A DNA stretch of 64,000 nt from an uncultured Bacteroidia bacterium (GTDB taxonomy: Bacteria > Bacteroidota > Bacteroidia > Bacteroidales > F082): NCBI GenBank assembly GCA_902802535.1, contig CADCML010000010.1, positions 53,066-117,065 on the forward strand, given 5' to 3'. Of this stretch, positions 38,930 through 47,799 are shown in pieces. How positions within the stretch are numbered: position 1 is the stretch's first letter; every line of letters begins with the position of its first letter. Both the position numbers and the translations under genes were made by a program. The notes beneath the pieces were generated by a model. It had not been told where the DNA came from. It ran no database searches and saw only the letters and a program-made list of their open reading frames with translations.

Positions 38930-41900
38930 TTAGAAATTGAAGCTCAAACCAACTCTGATGTGACGAGGCATCGAATAGTTGCCAGGAGCGTTGACATAGA
39001 GCTCATACATTTGGATGTAGGCCTGCGGGTCAATCTGGGCATTGATTTCATTCTGCCATTCGGGTGCTGAGAGGTAACCGTCGTCGTTGGGGTTACCAGT
39101 AGCGTTATACACACCAACAATGTTCTTTGAATTGAGCAGGTTCAGCACTTGCAGATACACGTTTATGAAAGCATCGCGTCCCTTCTTGCCTTCTTCCTTG
39201 CCACCCATGGTGAAGTTGAAGTCCTTGTCGACACGGAGGTCGAAACGGAACGAGGCAGGAATACGGGAACCGTTGTAGGTGCCTTGGAGCAAGTTGTTGC
39301 CGCCCGAGATGGGTGACGACACTTTACGAGCAGCGGTGAAAGGCGTACCCGAACCACCATTGACTTGCAGAGCGAAACCAGTGTTGGACAAGAATTGGAC
39401 GCCACCGATGGTAGGACCGTCATAGTCCTTACCGATGCTGAAACGATAGTCGAGCGTCAGGTTGAAGCTGTGACGACGGTCGGCATTGGTCGGGAAGGTG
39501 GATCTCAAGTTAGGCACACCAGCGGCAATCAAAGCGGCAGCCGTTGAGGTGGACGAACCGGTCATGTCGGCAAACTGCAAAGTGTAACTCGCACGGATAC
39601 GGGCGTTCTTTGTACGACGCATGTCGTAGCTGGCGGTCACACCCTTGACGGTACCGAAGTCGAGGTTGCTGTAAGAGTTGTAGCCCTTGGGGAAAGCACC
39701 GTTGAAACGGTACATCTGGATCATGTTACGCAACTCGTGGTAGTAGGCCGAAATCGTCATTGACGAAGTGTTGGTCACCTTCTGAGTGAAACCGAGTTCA
39801 TACTCAATGGTCTGTGAAGGTCTCAGGTTGGGGTTGGCAATCGTTCCCGAAAGGTCAGTAAAGCGCAAGTAATACAGCGGGCTGCAGTAGAAGGCACTGG
39901 TAGGACGCTGGGTCAACACATCATAGTGTGCGAAGAACAAGGCTTCGTCGGAAATCGGGAAGGAGAAGGAGATACGAGGCATGACGCTCCAAGCGGGATC
40001 GTAATCCTTGAAGGAGTTGATGTCGACCACTTGGTTCTCTTTTTCAACATACTTGTCCTTGAGCCAAGGCGTGACACCTGTACCCATGTCGAGAACACTC
40101 GGGTCGGCGATTTCAGTACCCAGGTCGTTGTACCAAGTATTGCCTTTACGATAACCCACAACGGCGGTCTTTTCGGTCAGCTTGTTGACGTAAACGGCAT
40201 AGTCGTTACCAATGTTGTCCGGAACATTAGCCCAAGTTTGAGCGTCTTCCAGCCAAATGCGGCCGTTTTCAGCCAAATCGCCAACGGTATAATAATCATA
40301 CAAAATATAAGGATCTTTCAGCACCATCTGGTTGGCGTCGAAACGGTCGACACGAACACCGATGTTGAAGATCAGGTCTTTGAATGCGAATTTGTCTTGG
40401 ATGTAACCGGCAATGTAGATGGGCTGTTGGGCACCAATTGGACGGGTGAAGACACCTTCATCATCGGTCTTGTTGAAGAAGTCGGAAAGTGAAGGACGTT
40501 CGGTCAAAGAATACTTGGTATGGCCATCGTAGCTGTAGCCATAGTAGTACACCGAGAAGTTACCGTCGCGGGTCAACTCGTCGGCACCGAACATGCTCAT
40601 ATCGAGGCCACCTTCAACCTTACCCATCTGCATTTTGCCTTCTTCATCATAATACATAATGGTATTGTTGTCGAAATCGTAAGTATCGATGAGGATCCAC
40701 TCCGTACCATTCACAGGCAGTCTCGTACCGTCGCTGGTGATGATGGATTGACGCAGACGGGCATCGAAAGTGTATTGGCTCTGCTCGTCATACAGTCTGT
40801 GATACAGCACCGTATCGGCGTGGCCGTCGTAAGCATTAGCATAAGGCTTGCTCAAGTCGAGCTCTCTGATGTGGAAGTTGGTCATGTCGCGCATCAGATC
40901 CCAATAGTTGGAGCTGTATGACATTTGCGAGTTGTTTTGCTGTTCATACTGGAAGCCCAACTTGATATCGTGAGAGTTGTCGCCTCTACCTAAGGTCAAT
41001 GAACCGTTGACGTTCACGGCAATCTGGTCGTTGACAGCCTTTCCGTAAGCCGATTGGATGGTGCCCGGCACTGCATACATGCCATAGACATAGTTGGGCG
41101 ACATACCGTTAATCAGACCGTTGTTCAACATGATGTTGGAGAGGTTGTCGTAGTAACCCGCAGCACCATAGTCCTTATACAGTTCAAAGTAGTTGCTGGC
41201 GTAAGTGGCCAAGTCAGGGTTGAACCTGGAGGGGGTGAATGTCACCAAGGTGTCGTAGTAGTTATCCAACACGAAGACATTGCTGAGGTTCTTGTATTCG
41301 CCATTGACCAACACCGAGTCGACAGACGTCGATTGGAAGTGGAAGTTGGGAGCCCTATGGGTGGTGAACTTACCCAAGTTGCCATAGGCGAAGATGTTGT
41401 TCCACAGGTCGGGGTCGCCCCATTCGCTGGTGTAGCGCGAATAGTCGGCCTGGATGCTGTAGTACACGTTGGAAATCAACGAAGTGCTCTCAGGATCGCT
41501 GGGGAAACGTTGGGTAAAACGGATATAGCCACGATAGGTGCCCGATTTGGACAGATAGTTCTTGTCTGTATTGAAGAAATAATGTCTGCGGCTATCAGGA
41601 TAGTGACCACTTGACATGACCATCGATCCACCAATGGTGAGGTTGGTAGTCTTGCCAGTACGAACGTCGATCTTACCCGTCAAGTTAATGCTTTGGTTGG
41701 TCGAATTCTTGAGGAAACGGGTTTGGAACAGGTCGTCTCTCGTCGTGTAAGCGGCAGTGGCATTGGTACCGACGCCGATGGTCAGAGGATTTGTCCTGAT
41801 ATAATCCATATACTCGTCCTTGGCACGCCAGTAACCGACAGCGGAGCTGTAGCCATACTTGTTGCGCGTGATATCAAAAGCGAGGAAGAAGCCGAGGAGG

Positions 41901-42548
41901 GCTTCCTGGTCGTTCTTCTTGCTCTTGATGAGCGGTCCTTGCAAGCTACCACCCAAGCGGCCGTGGCCGTAACCGTCGACCGAATACTCGGCTTCGATAC
42001 CGCCACCCCAAGTACGGCTGGGGCCCTTGGTGGTCATGTTGATGATACCGCCCATGGCGTCACCGTACATAGCAGGCGTACCACCCAAGATAACGTCGAC
42101 CTGCCGAACGCACAGGCAGTTTGGCGATTTCTTCAGAGGTGATGGAAGCGCCTTGTGTAGTGTTGTCCTTTGAGATCAGAGGAATCTCATAGTCGACAAC
42201 CGTGACTTCACCAATGTTGATAGCTCCACTGGCCATCTTGAAGTCGTAGAAGGTGATCTTGTTGGCCGGAATCACAATGTTCTTCGCAATGAAGGCATTG
42301 TAGCCAATGCAGCTCGCCTTGAGGTCATACGTTCCCGGAGGAATCGGGTTGATGTCATAATTACCGTCAAAGTCAGAGGAGGTTCCTCCCACTTGTGTTC
42401 CGCCTTTTTCAACAATGACGTTTGCAAATGGTACCGGTTCTCCTGTGTCATCGGTAATCTTGCCTTTGAGTCTTCCTTGCGCTTGTGCCATGGTCATCGT
42501 GCAGGCGGCCAAAACAACGGCAAGGGTCATTAGTAAATTTTTAAACAT
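38930..42548 (-). pseudogene. TonB-dependent receptor gene broken at the plug domain
   Basis: Two frames make up one receptor gene. The first part (42548 to about 42060) has a signal peptide, a carboxypeptidase-regulatory-like domain (GRLKGKITDDTGEPVPFANVIVEKGG) and the plug start ASITSEEIAKLPVRSAG. It then shifts into RRYLGWYACYVR and a stop. The second frame resumes with VDVILGGTPAMYGDAMGGIINMTTKGPSRTWGG and runs through a complete barrel to ...RHIRVGLSFNF. In this family about 50 residues (the plug core with the IDG motif) separate RSA from the ILGGTPA motif. They are missing here, with a frame change near 42098-42107. It heads the operon with the large surface protein and PorV-like genes. 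It would be inactive as written. Confidence 0.8.
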
Positions 42549-43698: not shown

Positions 43699-44748
43699 TT
43701 AATAACCTTCCAAGTTCACGCCCATATAAGCTACTTGACCAGGAACAATCTTCCTATCGGGATTAGCGGTATAGGTCCTGGTTGCAGTGGTATCATCATC
43801 AAACGTGAAGATGAGTTGGAAACCATACATGCAGGCTAAAGGACGCAACACAATGTTGAAAACAGGAGTAGTGTTCCTTGTCTTACCCATTTGGACAGCA
43901 GCTTGTTCACCATCCTGGACTTTCAAGGTCATGCGATTGCCCTTTACATAGGTGTCATTTTCACCAGTGAGCATGTTATAGATTGTTTCACCAGTCACAT
44001 TGTAACCCACTCTGTTCTTATAGGCCTCCAATTGAGCCATATAAGAAGAATTGTTCGGATTGAAATTTCTGAAGAGGGTCATCATTTCTACAGGATCCAC
44101 TTCGGGGATAATCAACTCGACCAAACCGCTCAGGTTGAAACCGTTGTCAACGACTTCAATCTTCTTAATGGTTCTCGGATTAGCGACATTTTCAAAGGGC
44201 ATCAGGGCAAGAACACCACAGATAGGTTCGAAATTAAAGTGAGTTTCACCATACATCAAATGCGTATCATCTAAACCTTTAGCTGCATTATACATAGCAT
44301 CTTTAGGAACCAAATTTGGACGATACTTTTGCTCAGGAGCAACATAGAACTTGCACTTGTTTTCGCCATTGTAAAGATAAGTAATCATGTGGCCAACACC
44401 ACCAGGATAGAAAGCATAGTAACCATCCATCATATCCTCACCGACTTCACCATAGCCAATATTCACGAATGGCACATTGGTAACGCCAGATTCAGTAGCA
44501 CCGTACAAAGCGGCATGGCTCTTGGTAGGAATCTCTTCGTTGATGTTGAAAAGCATACAAACATCACCTTGCTCAAAATGACCCTTAAACTGATCATCAA
44601 TATAGAGCCTTTCCTCGTCAAACGATCTGGAAGTGAATTCTGGAGCGTTGAAACGGAAAGAGTGGTGTGTTGTTTCATTCTTTTTGCATGAGGTGAAGAC
44701 CAAAGCGACCAACGCCATCATGCCCATACATTTCAATACTTTTTTCAT
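43699..44748 (-). CDS. Lipoprotein, possibly fimbrillin-like
   Basis: A 349-residue protein with a lipoprotein signal (ALVFTSC, Cys at about 21) followed by KKNETTHHSFRFNAPEF. The layout is a two-part beta-rich protein (FNFEPICGVLALMPFENVANPRTIKKIEVVDNGFNLSGLVEL, then FNIVLRPLACMYGFQLIFTFDDDTTATRTY...VPGQVAYMGVNLEGY). This is loosely like the fimbrillin families of Bacteroidales, but I cannot confirm it. It lies 49 bp after a 43-residue peptide gene and shares that gene's promoter, so the lipoprotein may be a partner, receptor or carrier for the peptide. Confidence 0.6.
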   Translation of the reverse strand: MKKVLKCMGMMALVALVFTSCKKNETTHHSFRFNAPEFTSRSFDEERLYIDDQFKGHFEQGDVCMLFNINEEIPTKSHAALYGATESGVTNVPFVNIGYGEVGEDMMDGYYAFYPGGVGHMITYLYNGENKCKFYVAPEQKYRPNLVPKDAMYNAAKGLDDTHLMYGETHFNFEPICGVLALMPFENVANPRTIKKIEVVDNGFNLSGLVELIIPEVDPVEMMTLFRNFNPNNSSYMAQLEAYKNRVGYNVTGETIYNMLTGENDTYVKGNRMTLKVQDGEQAAVQMGKTRNTTPVFNIVLRPLACMYGFQLIFTFDDDTTATRTYTANPDRKIVPGQVAYMGVNLEGY

Positions 44749-44797: not shown

Positions 44798-44929
44798 TTA
44801 ATCACCCCAATCTGTTGAGGTATAGGAACTAGCATTCCAGTCAGAAGGTTGTTGCATGAAATCCTTGTTCACGTTCAGCTCAACCACTTCAGCTTTGGGA
44901 GCTTCGTACATTTTGTTCATTTTTTTCAT
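44798..44929 (-). CDS. 43-residue candidate RiPP precursor peptide
   Basis: A short gene too small for most finders. The N-terminal half carries YEAPKAEVVELNVNKDF, with a YxxP motif at residues 8-11. YxxP is the leader feature bound by PqqD-like recognition domains in lasso-peptide clusters. The C-terminal half (QPSDWNASSYTSTDWGD) is rich in Ser, Thr and Trp and ends acidic, a plausible substrate for a Ser/Thr kinase. It has its own TATTTTTG promoter just downstream of the nucleotidyltransferase gene of the tailoring operon. Three in-frame ATGs (44929, 44920, 44911) are possible starts; the first is listed. No signal peptide is present. That it is modified by the neighbouring enzymes is an inference. 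Confidence 0.65.
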   Translation of the reverse strand: MKKMNKMYEAPKAEVVELNVNKDFMQQPSDWNASSYTSTDWGD

Positions 44930-45006: not shown

Positions 45007-45014
45007 CAAAAATA
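45007..45014 (-). promoter_or_regulatory. Promoter -7 box TATTTTTG (peptide and lipoprotein)
   Basis: Reverse-strand TATTTTTG 77 bp before the first peptide ATG. TTTG about 22 bp upstream could be the -33 element. It makes the peptide and lipoprotein a separate transcript from the tailoring operon, perhaps expressed at a higher level. Confidence 0.6.
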
Positions 45015-45044
45015 GACAATTAATTCATACGACGCGCAAAAAAA

Positions 45045-46151
45045 TCATTTTTTTTGAAAATTTTTTCCAAAGCCAATTTGAATCTCATTGCACCACTCGC
45101 GAAAAGCCTCTGAGGGAAACACGCCAACACAATGGAAAAAATCGACGAATATGCCAATAAAAGCATGTACTTTGTGCCATAAACGGCTCTTGGGCTTTTT
45201 GCGCTTGAAAGTATTTGTACGTTTGAAATTACCATCCTTCATGATTTGACAGTAAAGCCGTTGCGCCCGACTTTTGCATCTGACATCATAGAAAGGAAAC
45301 TCCACTTGAGGCAGCCCGAGGCAATCGACTAACAAATAGCCAAAGGTTTGCCATGGTTTCATTACATACATTGAGGTAAGCCATCGACGTAACTTGTCAA
45401 GGTCGAGTTGCCCGTAATATGCATGAAGGGTCATGGCGACATCGGTGAGTTGGCGCCAGCCCACGCCTGATTTCAAATAATGATGCCATGCATGGAAAAA
45501 GGTGAAAAACACCGCAAACTCCTTCGATGGAACGGTGATTTCATAGCCCTCGTACTTGACGTGCTGTGGATGGTCAAGTAGACCGTCCTTCTCCATAGCG
45601 GAATAAAGAGGTTGTCGTTGGGCATCCTCGACATCGGCACTAACGCGATGCACTTCCAAAGGAATGTGCCCAAACTCAATGTTGTAGTGCCTGCCCTCAT
45701 CAATCTCCTCACCCCAATTGTAGCCACCGGGCAGTGAACGCAGTAAGGTGCATGACTCGTGGAAATCAGCAACGCCTATAAAAAGATCGATGTCGCCAAT
45801 CTGACGCAAAGAGGGATTAGGATAAAGCAAGGCCAAACCGAAACCCTTCAGCACCACCGGCTCGATGCCATGTTCACGCAACAGCTTTACCGCCTGCAAT
45901 AAAATCTGCCTCAATTGCATCTGGTGGAGCAGGTTGTTGCGCATGACCGACTGCATCTTGGCTAGCTTAGCGGGCGAAGGTTTGTTACCGTCAGGCATCC
46001 TTGAAGCCACATCGGCAATCAATACATTGTTGCTATGGAACCCAGCCACTTGCATGACGGCTTCCCAATCGATTTCACCATCGATGGATACCGGCGTGTC
46101 CCAAAGGGCAGCACGGAGCAATGCAAAATACTGTTGTTCGACAGTCAACAT
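45045..46151 (-). CDS. Nucleotidyltransferase-family protein (NTP_transf_5)
   Basis: A 368-residue protein with the NTP_transf_5 core: VVLKGFGLALLYPNPSLRQIGDIDLFIGVADF (about 99-130). Asp120 and Asp122 of GDIDLF form the metal-binding pair, and LEVHRVSADVE follows further on. Members occur with lasso-peptide and other peptide-tailoring clusters, including beside HprK-like kinases in paeninodin-type clusters, where a nucleotidyl group may be added to the peptide. The donor and target here are unknown. It is the last gene of the operon HprK-like kinase, S24/S26 peptidase, PqqD-like protein, and lies 24 bp after the PqqD gene. Confidence 0.85.
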   Translation of the reverse strand: MLTVEQQYFALLRAALWDTPVSIDGEIDWEAVMQVAGFHSNNVLIADVASRMPDGNKPSPAKLAKMQSVMRNNLLHQMQLRQILLQAVKLLREHGIEPVVLKGFGLALLYPNPSLRQIGDIDLFIGVADFHESCTLLRSLPGGYNWGEEIDEGRHYNIEFGHIPLEVHRVSADVEDAQRQPLYSAMEKDGLLDHPQHVKYEGYEITVPSKEFAVFFTFFHAWHHYLKSGVGWRQLTDVAMTLHAYYGQLDLDKLRRWLTSMYVMKPWQTFGYLLVDCLGLPQVEFPFYDVRCKSRAQRLYCQIMKDGNFKRTNTFKRKKPKSRLWHKVHAFIGIFVDFFHCVGVFPSEAFREWCNEIQIGFGKNFQKK

Positions 46152-46175
46152 GACTTATACCTTATTAATTAATAA

Positions 46176-46448
46176 TCATTCCTCTATGATACCAGCAGCC
46201 GACCACGACTTCAACAAGGCAGCCACATCGTTTTGGGCTGTTTCACGGTCGATGTCATAGTTGTCCACCAAAAGATTCGTCAACGTTTCAGCATCAAAAT
46301 CCTTGTCCTCTACTTCCTTCCAAAGAAAAGCAGAGCTTTCATTCATCGAAATCATGCGACTAAAATCTACCGCTGCGTCCAAACCTTCAACAACGAGTAT
46401 AAACTCTTGGCCTAAAGAACGAAGCGTATAACCTTTTTTAATTTTCAT
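46176..46448 (-). CDS. PqqD-family peptide-recognition protein
   Basis: A 90-residue stand-alone PqqD-like (RRE) domain: KIKKGYTLRSLGQEFILVVEGLDAAVDFSRMISMNESSAFLWKEV then ETLTNLLVDNYDIDRETAQNDVAALLKSWSAAGIIEE. The MISMNESSAFLWKEV strand-helix and the winged-helix C-terminal half are the family hallmarks. Such domains bind the leader of a precursor peptide and present it to modifying enzymes. The start overlaps the stop of the S24/S26 gene (ATGA), so the two are translationally coupled. The YxxP peptide encoded 1.2 kb downstream is the likely partner. Confidence 0.9.
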   Translation of the reverse strand: MKIKKGYTLRSLGQEFILVVEGLDAAVDFSRMISMNESSAFLWKEVEDKDFDAETLTNLLVDNYDIDRETAQNDVAALLKSWSAAGIIEE

Positions 46449-46903
46449 TTTTTTATTGTATTTAATTGTTTGTTTTTCAATTTATTCCATTTTCTGTAGA
46501 CTTTCAATTGATATTTTCTGAGAAATAAAGTATGTCGCCAAAGCCATGCCTTCCCCGGATTGTGCTTTCGATTATCAGGCGTTATAATTTCAACCACTTT
46601 ACCAACCACATCCGATCGATCTCCTTGTTCTGTACCCTTCAAAATGCCATCGCCCATCAAAGTAATTTCGTTCCCATTGATGGCAATGATACGATGCAAG
46701 ACATAGCGGTTTTCAAAATAGGCCAACACGATGTCGCCTACCCTCAAGCTATCAGGCTTGCATAATTTGACGTGATCTTCCTCACCACGAATGAAAGGGA
46801 GCATACTCCTACCTTTTGTCATCATTACCACTTCGCGACCTTCACCAAGCAATTGGGCGACTTCGTTCAGAAGCACATCGTTCGGTAGGACAATCCTATC
46901 CAT
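46445..46903 (-). CDS. S24/S26-family (signal-peptidase-like) serine peptidase
   Basis: A 152-residue protein with the S24/S26 core: VVMMTKGRSMLPFI (nucleophile Ser33 in the SMxP motif), VGDIVLAYFENRYVLHRIIAI (candidate base His70, as in SipW-type enzymes) and MGDGILKGTEQGDRSDVVGKVVEI. There is no clear N-terminal membrane anchor. The Lys/Arg-rich C-terminal part could touch the membrane. In this operon it is a candidate for cutting the leader from the modified peptide, in place of the lasso B2 protease. Overlaps the PqqD start by 4 bp. Confidence 0.85.
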   Translation of the reverse strand: MDRIVLPNDVLLNEVAQLLGEGREVVMMTKGRSMLPFIRGEEDHVKLCKPDSLRVGDIVLAYFENRYVLHRIIAINGNEITLMGDGILKGTEQGDRSDVVGKVVEIITPDNRKHNPGKAWLWRHTLFLRKYQLKVYRKWNKLKNKQLNTIKK

Positions 46904-46904
46904 A

Positions 46905-47774
46905 TTATTGTGTCACTGTTTTATAACACAAATAAGCCGCCTCCGCATTAGGCAAACAATCCAACGAATAGCACGGAACAGAGCAGACTATTTTCTCTGT
47001 TGTGGTATGCATTCCATCCGCCAATTCCTTGAGGAACCTAATGCCAGAGGAAGACGTAAACATCGTGGCGTAAGCCTCGGCAATGGACAGTCTGCGAATC
47101 TTGTTCACTTTAGCCTGATGGAGGTCAACAATGGCACCCACAGGATAATCCAGATTGCGATAGCAAGGTGTCTTGCCACTCCAAGGGGAACCATAAACGT
47201 GTGTTTCTCCATTTTCTTCTACTCGAAGCACTGGATTGTCATCATTCAGCAATTCACATCCTTCTAAATTATTAATCCACAATTGGCTGTGCGTACTTTT
47301 GCCCGTACCGCTCCTGCCCAAGAAAAGATAGCCTTTCCCATCCTTCACTGTGACAGAAGAATGCATCATAAGCGTGTCTTTTCGTTCCGTTGCAAAAGCA
47401 TACATCAACATTATTATTGAATTGATTGAGAATCTCATGCAGCCAAGTATGCGGAATCTCGCTTTAGTGAAAGCCTTATCCGTAATAAAATATAACCGCA
47501 CCGGAGCCTCAAAAGTAGGTGCTCCTTCGAACAACCATTGTCCCCTCCATTCGTAAAGATCAAAGCGTGGTGCCTCAGGAGCTTCACAGTTTGTCGTCAC
47601 TTTTTGCTTTTCAGTTGTATCAGGCATCTCATCAATCAGTTCAGCGGTAAAAATATAGTTACCCGAATCTTCTATCAAAAATGGTTCATAACTCTGCAAC
47701 GCTTCCCAAGCTCTATCGCCGTCAGGCATAATGACAGCAAAATTATGGCCCGCAACTTTATATACTTTCTTCAT
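46905..47774 (-). CDS. HprK-like kinase of a peptide-tailoring cluster
   Basis: A 289-residue protein like the C-terminal domain of HPr kinase/phosphorylase. The P-loop is LGRSGTGKST (about 152-161), preceded by MMHSS (about 136-140, the HA/HS position), and followed by ELLNDDNPVLRVEENGETHVYGSPWSGKT. HprK-like enzymes in lasso-peptide clusters phosphorylate a Ser in the precursor, so this one may phosphorylate the 43-residue peptide. The residues 1-130 N-terminal to the kinase are a separate mixed fold. First gene of the operon with a TATTTTTG promoter. A phosphotransferase-system role is unlikely, as no HPr or PTS gene is nearby. The start at MKKVYKV is chosen because upstream codons cross the promoter. 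Confidence 0.87.
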   Translation of the reverse strand: MKKVYKVAGHNFAVIMPDGDRAWEALQSYEPFLIEDSGNYIFTAELIDEMPDTTEKQKVTTNCEAPEAPRFDLYEWRGQWLFEGAPTFEAPVRLYFITDKAFTKARFRILGCMRFSINSIIMLMYAFATERKDTLMMHSSVTVKDGKGYLFLGRSGTGKSTHSQLWINNLEGCELLNDDNPVLRVEENGETHVYGSPWSGKTPCYRNLDYPVGAIVDLHQAKVNKIRRLSIAEAYATMFTSSSGIRFLKELADGMHTTTEKIVCSVPCYSLDCLPNAEAAYLCYKTVTQ

Positions 47775-47791: not shown

Positions 47792-47799
47792 CAAAAATA
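47792..47799 (-). promoter_or_regulatory. Promoter -7 box TATTTTTG (RiPP-like operon)
   Basis: Reverse-strand TATTTTTG 17 bp before the kinase start, divergent from lnt. Confidence 0.6.

Follow-up and report, generated by a model that had tools for sequence, protein, structure and literature searches.

Linear polyphosphorylated peptides (LPP) are a class of ribosomally synthesized and post-translationally modified peptides (RiPPs) described in 2026 from Bacillota, with the lppAKBSDN cluster of Paenibacillus alginolyticus; that report calls the class restricted to Bacillota and gives its biological roles as unknown (PMC13381572). We examined a 64,000-nucleotide stretch of DNA, hereafter the window, from an uncultured Bacteroidia bacterium (Bacteroidales, family F082; assembly GCA_902802535.1, contig CADCML010000010.1, positions 53,066 to 117,065), in which four minus-strand genes fill positions 45045-47774 exactly. 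We read these genes as an operon that matures an LPP-like RiPP of lasso-free kind, with a probability of about 0.82.

In the Bacillota clusters, the roles of the kinase and of the SipW-like leader peptidase were proved by gene deletion, and leader cleavage in vitro depended on the RiPP recognition element (RRE). The precursors carry the motif YxxPxVLxHQxIxFETxxS, in which the serine 18 residues after the tyrosine (Tyr+18) is phosphorylated and an S3T variant is not; in LPP and most lasso systems alike, stand-alone RREs recognize YxxP, and paeninodin leaders carry WxxP (PMC13381572). For pseudomycoidin, PsmN is reported to add one or two hexoses to phosphoserine, a host enzyme not being excluded (PMC9266682). 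By analogy, the window's PqqD-type RRE (46176-46448) would bind the YxxP leader of a 43-residue precursor and of precursors encoded elsewhere, and its HprK-like kinase (46905-47774) would phosphorylate a core serine, which in most off-locus precursors stands at Tyr+19. The S26 peptidase (46445-46903) would cleave off the leader at about residues 16-17 counted from the tyrosine, and the NTP_transf_5 enzyme (45045-46151) would decorate the phosphate, most likely with hexose. Judged from sequence, phosphorylation and trimming of gene-encoded peptides by this enzyme set are probable; the NTP_transf_5 step is the least certain of those proposed. A preliminary description of the locus had suggested a product that was perhaps nucleotidylated, for which we found no support, the PsmN precedent being a hexose on phosphoserine.

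That description had listed four adjacent same-strand genes with overlaps or near-zero gaps, and this layout was confirmed: kinase and S26 genes are separated by 1 nucleotide, S26 and PqqD genes overlap by 4 bp, and 24 nucleotides lie between the PqqD and nucleotidyltransferase genes. Two of the products exceeded family cut-offs. The 90-residue PqqD-like protein, a predicted stand-alone, LppB-like RRE, matched PF05402 (E 3.3e-15), and its family profile had TfuB1 (6jx3, E 2.2e-5) as its sole match among PDB sequences. The 368-residue nucleotidyltransferase-like protein, a putative tailoring enzyme and LppN/PsmN-like by position, matched PF14907 (NTP_transf_5, E 1.4e-37); its GDxD motif residues G119, D120 and D122 were invariant in 22 sequences, and a search of PDB sequences with the family gave no match. 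Alignments took in 29 of 38 kinases, 22 of 34 NTP_transf_5 proteins, 24 of 34 S26 proteins (locus L090, with a stop within its coordinates, was left out) and 26 of 37 PqqD proteins.

The first gene encodes a protein of 289 residues with the P-loop GRSGTGKST, predicted to be an LppK-like peptide kinase of HprK/PEPCK fold. It exceeded the cut-off of no curated family scanned, with weak matches to PEPCK_ATP (E 3.2e-5), ScmC (TIGR04249, E 3.4e-8, a distant match at 33.2 of 125 bits) and TIGR04352 (E 1.1e-5). The last of these, the HprK-related kinase A system, was rejected as an assignment at 24.7 bits against a cut-off of 200. An AlphaFold2 model of the kinase (predicted local distance difference test, pLDDT, 94.6) matched PEPCK or HPr kinase/phosphatase in 49 of the 50 PDB entries listed, starting at E 1.3e-6 with a probability of 1.00; the exception was a respiratory supercomplex. 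The P-loop residues and the motifs NDDxP and GxPWSGKTxCY were invariant in the 29 aligned sequences.

The second protein (152 residues) is a probable leader peptidase, LppS-like and of the archaeal/SipW signal-peptidase type. It fell below every cut-off (TIGR02228, archaeal-type signal peptidase I, E 1.6e-4; Peptidase_S24, E 0.017), and its family matched only LexA and SEC11A, both weakly, among PDB sequences. Of 66 aligned sequences, that of the window included, at least 65 share residues G31, S33, M34, P36, H70, R71, G84-D85-G86 and E92; LppS requires Ser29, His68 and Asp93 (PMC13381572). An N-terminal hydrophobic segment was not found when the sequence was read by eye. The earlier suggestion that an S24/S26 peptidase takes the place of the leader protease was supported.

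A kinase, an RRE and an NTP transferase also occur together in lasso clusters of the paeninodin/pseudomycoidin type, and the operon could accordingly be a degenerate lasso-peptide cluster with its macrocyclase encoded elsewhere. The genome does contain Asn_synthase matches on other contigs, two over the cut-off and one below. The two clear ones share a single contig in frames of 546 and 530 residues, apparently of housekeeping size, and the genome, at 85% completeness, gave no match to Transglut_core3, the B2 peptidase model. A macrocyclase gene was not seen among the genes scanned at the locus, an S26 peptidase stands in place of B2, and the leader carries YxxP rather than the WxxP of paeninodin. 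We rejected a lasso pathway on the missing Transglut_core3 match and the confinement of Asn_synthase matches to other contigs, and consider a degenerate cluster extremely unlikely. The preliminary description had likewise seen neither macrocyclase nor B2 and had proposed a lasso-free relative of the phosphorylated lasso clusters; this proposal gained support, as the same layout has been proved in Bacillota (PMC13381572).

Downstream of the enzyme genes, at 44798-44929 on the minus strand, lies a 43-residue open reading frame (ORF) that we take to encode the precursor, with the leader MKKMNKMYEAPKAEVVEL containing YxxP and a variable core. Its conservation was assessed in the 173 genomes of the family. 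The kinase was present in 37, every one in the window's genus, and these gave 38 loci, that of the window included. The order HprK-like kinase, S26, PqqD-type RRE, NTP_transf_5 was found in 32 of the 38, the window among them, and because this order is kept the gene set is not a chance grouping. The syntenic loci were flanked by a divergent lnt (32/32), dus (31/32) and a lipoprotein gene (31/32), the exception (L085) lying on a contig of 4.3 kb that breaks off at either side. NTP_transf_5 preceded the kinase in two of the six non-syntenic loci, PqqD preceded a more distant kinase in three, and one had the kinase alone. In L096, L097 and L098 the more distant kinase directly follows PqqD, and S26 and NTP_transf_5 matches were not found nearby.

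An ORF of 37-49 residues lay between the NTP_transf_5 and lipoprotein genes in all 31 loci that extend that far; the one syntenic locus of the 32 without it is at a contig edge. All 31 peptides carry YxxP and an alanine at Tyr+5. The N-terminal half is conserved (MKKMNKMYEAPKAEVIE), with M1, K2, Y8, A10, P11, A13 and E14 invariant, and the C-terminal half is variable, with a serine or threonine somewhere in every core. For 25 of the 31 peptides, pairwise comparison of the codons in the leader gave 1091, 527 and 1987 differences at positions 1, 2 and 3, and the excess at position 3 matches expectation for a translated ORF. This recurring short frame is what the preliminary description had advised looking for.

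A profile built from the 31 locus peptides (A3) was searched in the 173 family genomes at E <= 0.01 and gave 84 matches in 33 genomes. Of these matches, 31 are at the locus and 53 lie off it, one of the latter (C77) in the window's own genome. All 53 off-locus precursors were read. Their consensus is Y-E-A-P-K-x-E-V-I-E-I-x-x-Q-G-V-L-C-A-S, with serine at Tyr+19 in 50 and threonine there in none; a slight bias toward this serine arises because the search profile came from locus peptides, 14 of 31 of which have it. A tryptophan stands within the last five residues of 42 of the 53 off-locus cores against 6 of 31 locus cores. Core endings such as NWP, GSW and GYGW recur (L206-L255), so that the cores group into families sharing a conserved C-terminus. 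Loci L217, L223 and L232 each hold two precursor copies per stretch, which suggests local duplication of precursor-lipoprotein pairs.

Most precursor genes are paired with lipoprotein genes. The window ORF stops 49 nucleotides ahead of one, and by a pattern test a gene with a lipoprotein signal follows 45 of the 53 off-locus copies, 39 within 69 bp; among the remaining eight, three neighbours looked lipoprotein-like by eye, two copies were at contig ends and three had none. This proximity would be expected if the small ORF were a regulatory leader of the lipoprotein gene, either an attenuator or an upstream ORF coupling its translation, rather than an enzyme substrate. The distribution of the peptide speaks otherwise. 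A3 matches occurred in 33 of the 37 genomes with the kinase and in none of the 136 without it (naive Fisher p 2e-31, not corrected for phylogeny), even though a lipoprotein match is present in five kinase-negative members of the genus. In three of these (G063, G120 and G140; 98, 85 and 80% complete) the lipoprotein gene remains at the same lnt-dus site behind a promoter-like TATTTTTG element, the four enzyme genes and the peptide are all absent from that site, and kinase and A3 peptide are absent genome-wide. The other two, G045 and G055, have weaker lipoprotein matches, that of G045 at a different site. On a tree of Lnt from 34 loci, the three jointly lacking genomes need three changes, at least two of them forced by well-supported branches. 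Joint absence at sites that retain the lipoprotein gene means that the peptide travels with the enzymes and not with the lipoprotein. We rejected the attenuator and upstream-ORF reading on this joint absence and on the codon position 3 pattern; the near-constant serine at +19 off-locus also speaks against it, and we regard it as highly improbable.

The same distribution bears on whether the peptide is a mere neighbour and the enzymes modify something else, which would be a protein or an envelope polysaccharide, the kind of target supposed for systems of HprK-related kinase A. LPP and paeninodin clusters do often lie inside capsular polysaccharide loci (PMC13381572), and the kinase has its weak TIGR04352 match. 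That match is far below its cut-off, a stand-alone RRE accompanies a YxxP peptide in all 31 loci reaching that far, and the enzymes co-occur, and are jointly absent, with the peptide. A target other than the peptide is thus very unlikely in our judgement.

We then compared loci beyond the genus. A pattern scan of a genome collection gave at least 594 kinase-like stretches, at least 591 of them confirmed, and the best 80 were examined; all but three bore titles of Bacteroidales, Bacteroidia or constituent families or genera, the three being "bacterium P3" and two Candidatus names, and six (L126-L131) belong to the window's genus. S26 and PqqD lay within 4 kb of the kinase in 62 of these 80 loci, in the order HprK-S26-PqqD in 52, and NTP_transf_5 was found nearby in 17. 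The earlier expectation that the four genes stay together therefore stands within the genus (32/38 loci); more widely it is the trio that persists, with NTP_transf_5 seldom near the kinase. ABC_tran and ABC_membrane were found in 41 and 40 of 94 neighbour proteins scanned of 150 listed, with the six loci of the window's genus left out, so that many Bacteroidales loci have a predicted LppD-like exporter that the window's locus lacks. Near the kinase, 29 of these 80 loci have a YxxP ORF; many such frames are evidently fortuitous, and eight outside the window's genus were credible by eye.

Among 295 genomes from across the order, 39 matched the kinase profile (E <= 1e-10) and 7 matched the peptide profile (E <= 0.001). 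Of the 18 genomes whose kinase match was about 1e-30 or stronger, 6 had a peptide match, as did 1 of the 277 others; with peptide matches in long reading frames set aside, the figures are 4 of 18 and 1 of 277. Eight further kinase-positive genomes all gave a peptide match at E <= 0.05, and seven did so at 0.001; six of the eight had been preselected for a YxxP ORF near the kinase, and L188 and L133 had not. The 12 loci from these genomes, four of which are the preselected ORFs again, had serine at +19 in eight cases and within +18 to +20 in 11, and in six the next gene was lipoprotein-like by eye. Outside the phylum, plasmid pNP243 of Butyrivibrio fibrisolvens (L269, Bacillota) encodes consecutively a kinase, a 57-residue peptide beginning MKKAYVKPEL, PqqD and an S24/S26 peptidase. 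Against the Bacteroidales profiles its kinase scored E 4.6e-39 (in a five-protein search), its S26 protein a probability of 98.7 and its RRE 98.5, and its peptide had no match to the peptide profile. This YxxP peptide is Cys-rich, and a sensor kinase and a response regulator are encoded nearby. We did not find a Bacteroidota LPP-like system in the literature, most subscription papers and preprints being outside the scope of the search; a survey of RiPPs in 1,136 strains of Bacteroidales gave no hit for nucleotidyl, signal peptidase or S24, and the passages retrieved from it describe no such cluster (PMC10352776).

The lipoprotein of the window (43699-44748, minus strand; 349 residues, lipobox FTSC) had no Pfam match at E 0.1, and one of the 26 locus-family lipoproteins scanned reached Mfa_like_1 (E 0.014). 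It was the sole lipoprotein modelled, with AlphaFold2 giving a pLDDT of 76.6 from 7 sequences. The best 12 of 614 PDB matches by Foldseek were Bacteroidota adhesion, fimbrial or antigen structures (E 2.5e-8 to 6.1e-5), with template modelling (TM) scores by query of 0.31-0.44; the top structure, 3t2l, had E 2.5e-8 and a probability of 1.00 with a TM score of just 0.39. Alignments of 26 of the 31 locus and 38 of the 45 off-locus lipoproteins showed that both sets begin with a common domain some 270 residues long (hhalign probability 100, E 3.5e-50). The predicted fold suggests that the window lipoprotein is fimbrillin-like, and the off-locus proteins are related to it through the N-terminal domain. 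At E <= 0.1, some of the 38 off-locus proteins matched additional C-terminal domains, namely Lcl_C (6), fn3 (5), Fib_succ_major (5), Cleaved_Adhesin (2) and BspA-type repeats (1).

These partner genes allow two views of the product. It may be that one RiPP machine serves scattered precursors, most of them encoded with a fimbrillin-like surface lipoprotein of their own, and that the phosphorylated, perhaps glycosylated, peptides are dedicated partners of surface adhesins, as ligands, assembly factors or switches, and not antibiotics. In the window's genus this would work with no dedicated exporter encoded at the locus; we offer this view tentatively, as possible rather than probable. Alternatively, the product would be secreted and act as a bacteriocin or signal, with the linked lipoprotein serving as receptor or immunity protein and not as a peptide-using adhesin. 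An ABC exporter beside the trio in many related Bacteroidales clusters and the variable cores, as in conflict systems, fit a secreted product. No exporter gene was found between lnt and the lipoprotein gene in the window or the syntenic loci, and a shared N-terminal domain, fimbrillin-like in the window protein, would be unlike typical immunity proteins; we consider a bacteriocin or signal unlikely, if worth keeping in view. The genetic link between precursor and fimbrillin-like lipoprotein makes a concrete biological role testable.

Several observations weigh against an LPP-like maturation operon. The exporter gene missing from the locus is one, the closest match in the window's genome (85% complete) to the exporter of a related cluster being 25% identical. 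In B. subtilis, losing lppN by deletion caused no visible change (PMC13381572), so that the NTP transferase step is unproved even in the LPP system. The catalytic acid of LppS is an aspartate, whereas the S26 protein of the window keeps both Asp85 and Glu92. Serine is at Tyr+19 in 14 of the 31 locus peptides; the window precursor has glutamine there and its first core serine at +21, which weakens the phosphosite claim for that peptide. The co-occurrence statistics ignore kinship between genomes, and four kinase-positive family genomes are without an A3 match, although one of them, G046, has A8 matches. The peptide profile, built on the window's genus, matched just seven of 295 genomes across the order, two of the seven hits falling within long reading frames, and in G462 three peptide matches stand without one to the kinase. 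Lastly, the pNP243 peptide lacks a serine at +18 or +19.

Promoter-like elements were also recorded. A Bacteroidota-type site, TTTG-N22-TATTTTTG, lies at 45007-45040 (minus strand) between the enzyme genes and the precursor gene, scored against the Bacteroidota promoter consensus. The pattern has 3 matches in the window against 1.4 expected by chance, which is not significant alone, and in 19 of 31 loci a looser promoter-like pattern was found ahead of the peptide. A candidate -7-like element, TATTTTTG, was read from the sequence at 47792-47799 (minus strand), immediately before the enzyme operon. The preliminary description had placed the four genes after one promoter; this is not proved by that element, as promoter and terminator scans gave site numbers about equal to those of shuffled sequences, with no excess. 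It had recognized the enzyme set correctly and had missed the precursor (44798-44929), the lipoprotein gene (43699-44748) and the precursors in trans.

Farther downstream, an outer-membrane-receptor-like gene is apparently split into overlapping minus-strand frames at 42060-42548 and 38930-42088. The first, of 162 residues, matches carboxypeptidase-regulatory and SusC/RagA models; the second, of 1052 residues, matches no Pfam model at 1e-5 and is presumably the TonB-receptor barrel. The split near 42060-42088 appears to be a frameshift or an assembly error.

Set beside known systems, the lipoprotein resembles the fimbrillin superfamily, the Mfa/FimA-like adhesins of Bacteroidia, in the predicted fold of the window protein and in the related N-terminal domain off-locus; it differs in having no Pfam match and in the pairing of its gene with a RiPP-like precursor. 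The operon shares kinase, PqqD-type RRE and nucleotidyltransferase with paeninodin/pseudomycoidin-type lasso clusters, and differs from them in its peptidase and its leader motif, in that no lasso cyclase was seen at the locus and in that the genome gave no B2 match. By these comparisons, it closely resembles LPP systems. The window encodes an HprK-like kinase, a stand-alone RRE, a signal-peptidase-like peptidase and an NTP transferase together, and macrolactam cyclase and B2 peptidase were not found for it. The leader of its precursor family fits [Y/W]xxPx[L/V/I/A/F/Y] ahead of a variable core, and most off-locus copies have a serine about 18 residues after the tyrosine. It differs from LPP in that the MsbA-like (LppD-type) exporter of the core cluster was not found at the locus and in that the extended motif lacks HQ and FET and has its serine at +19 rather than +18; because this exporter and this leader motif are wanting, we have not filed the operon as LPP. 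A RiPP class described as confined to Bacillota is hereby extended to Bacteroidales, in which the core trio is common, and the precursors in trans supply natural substrates by the tens with which the tolerance of the RRE, the kinase and the signal-peptidase-like peptidase can be mapped. What is new relative to the Bacillota clusters is the phylum, the 53 further precursors encoded in trans, a locus free of an exporter gene, and the lipoprotein partner genes that follow 45 of those precursors.

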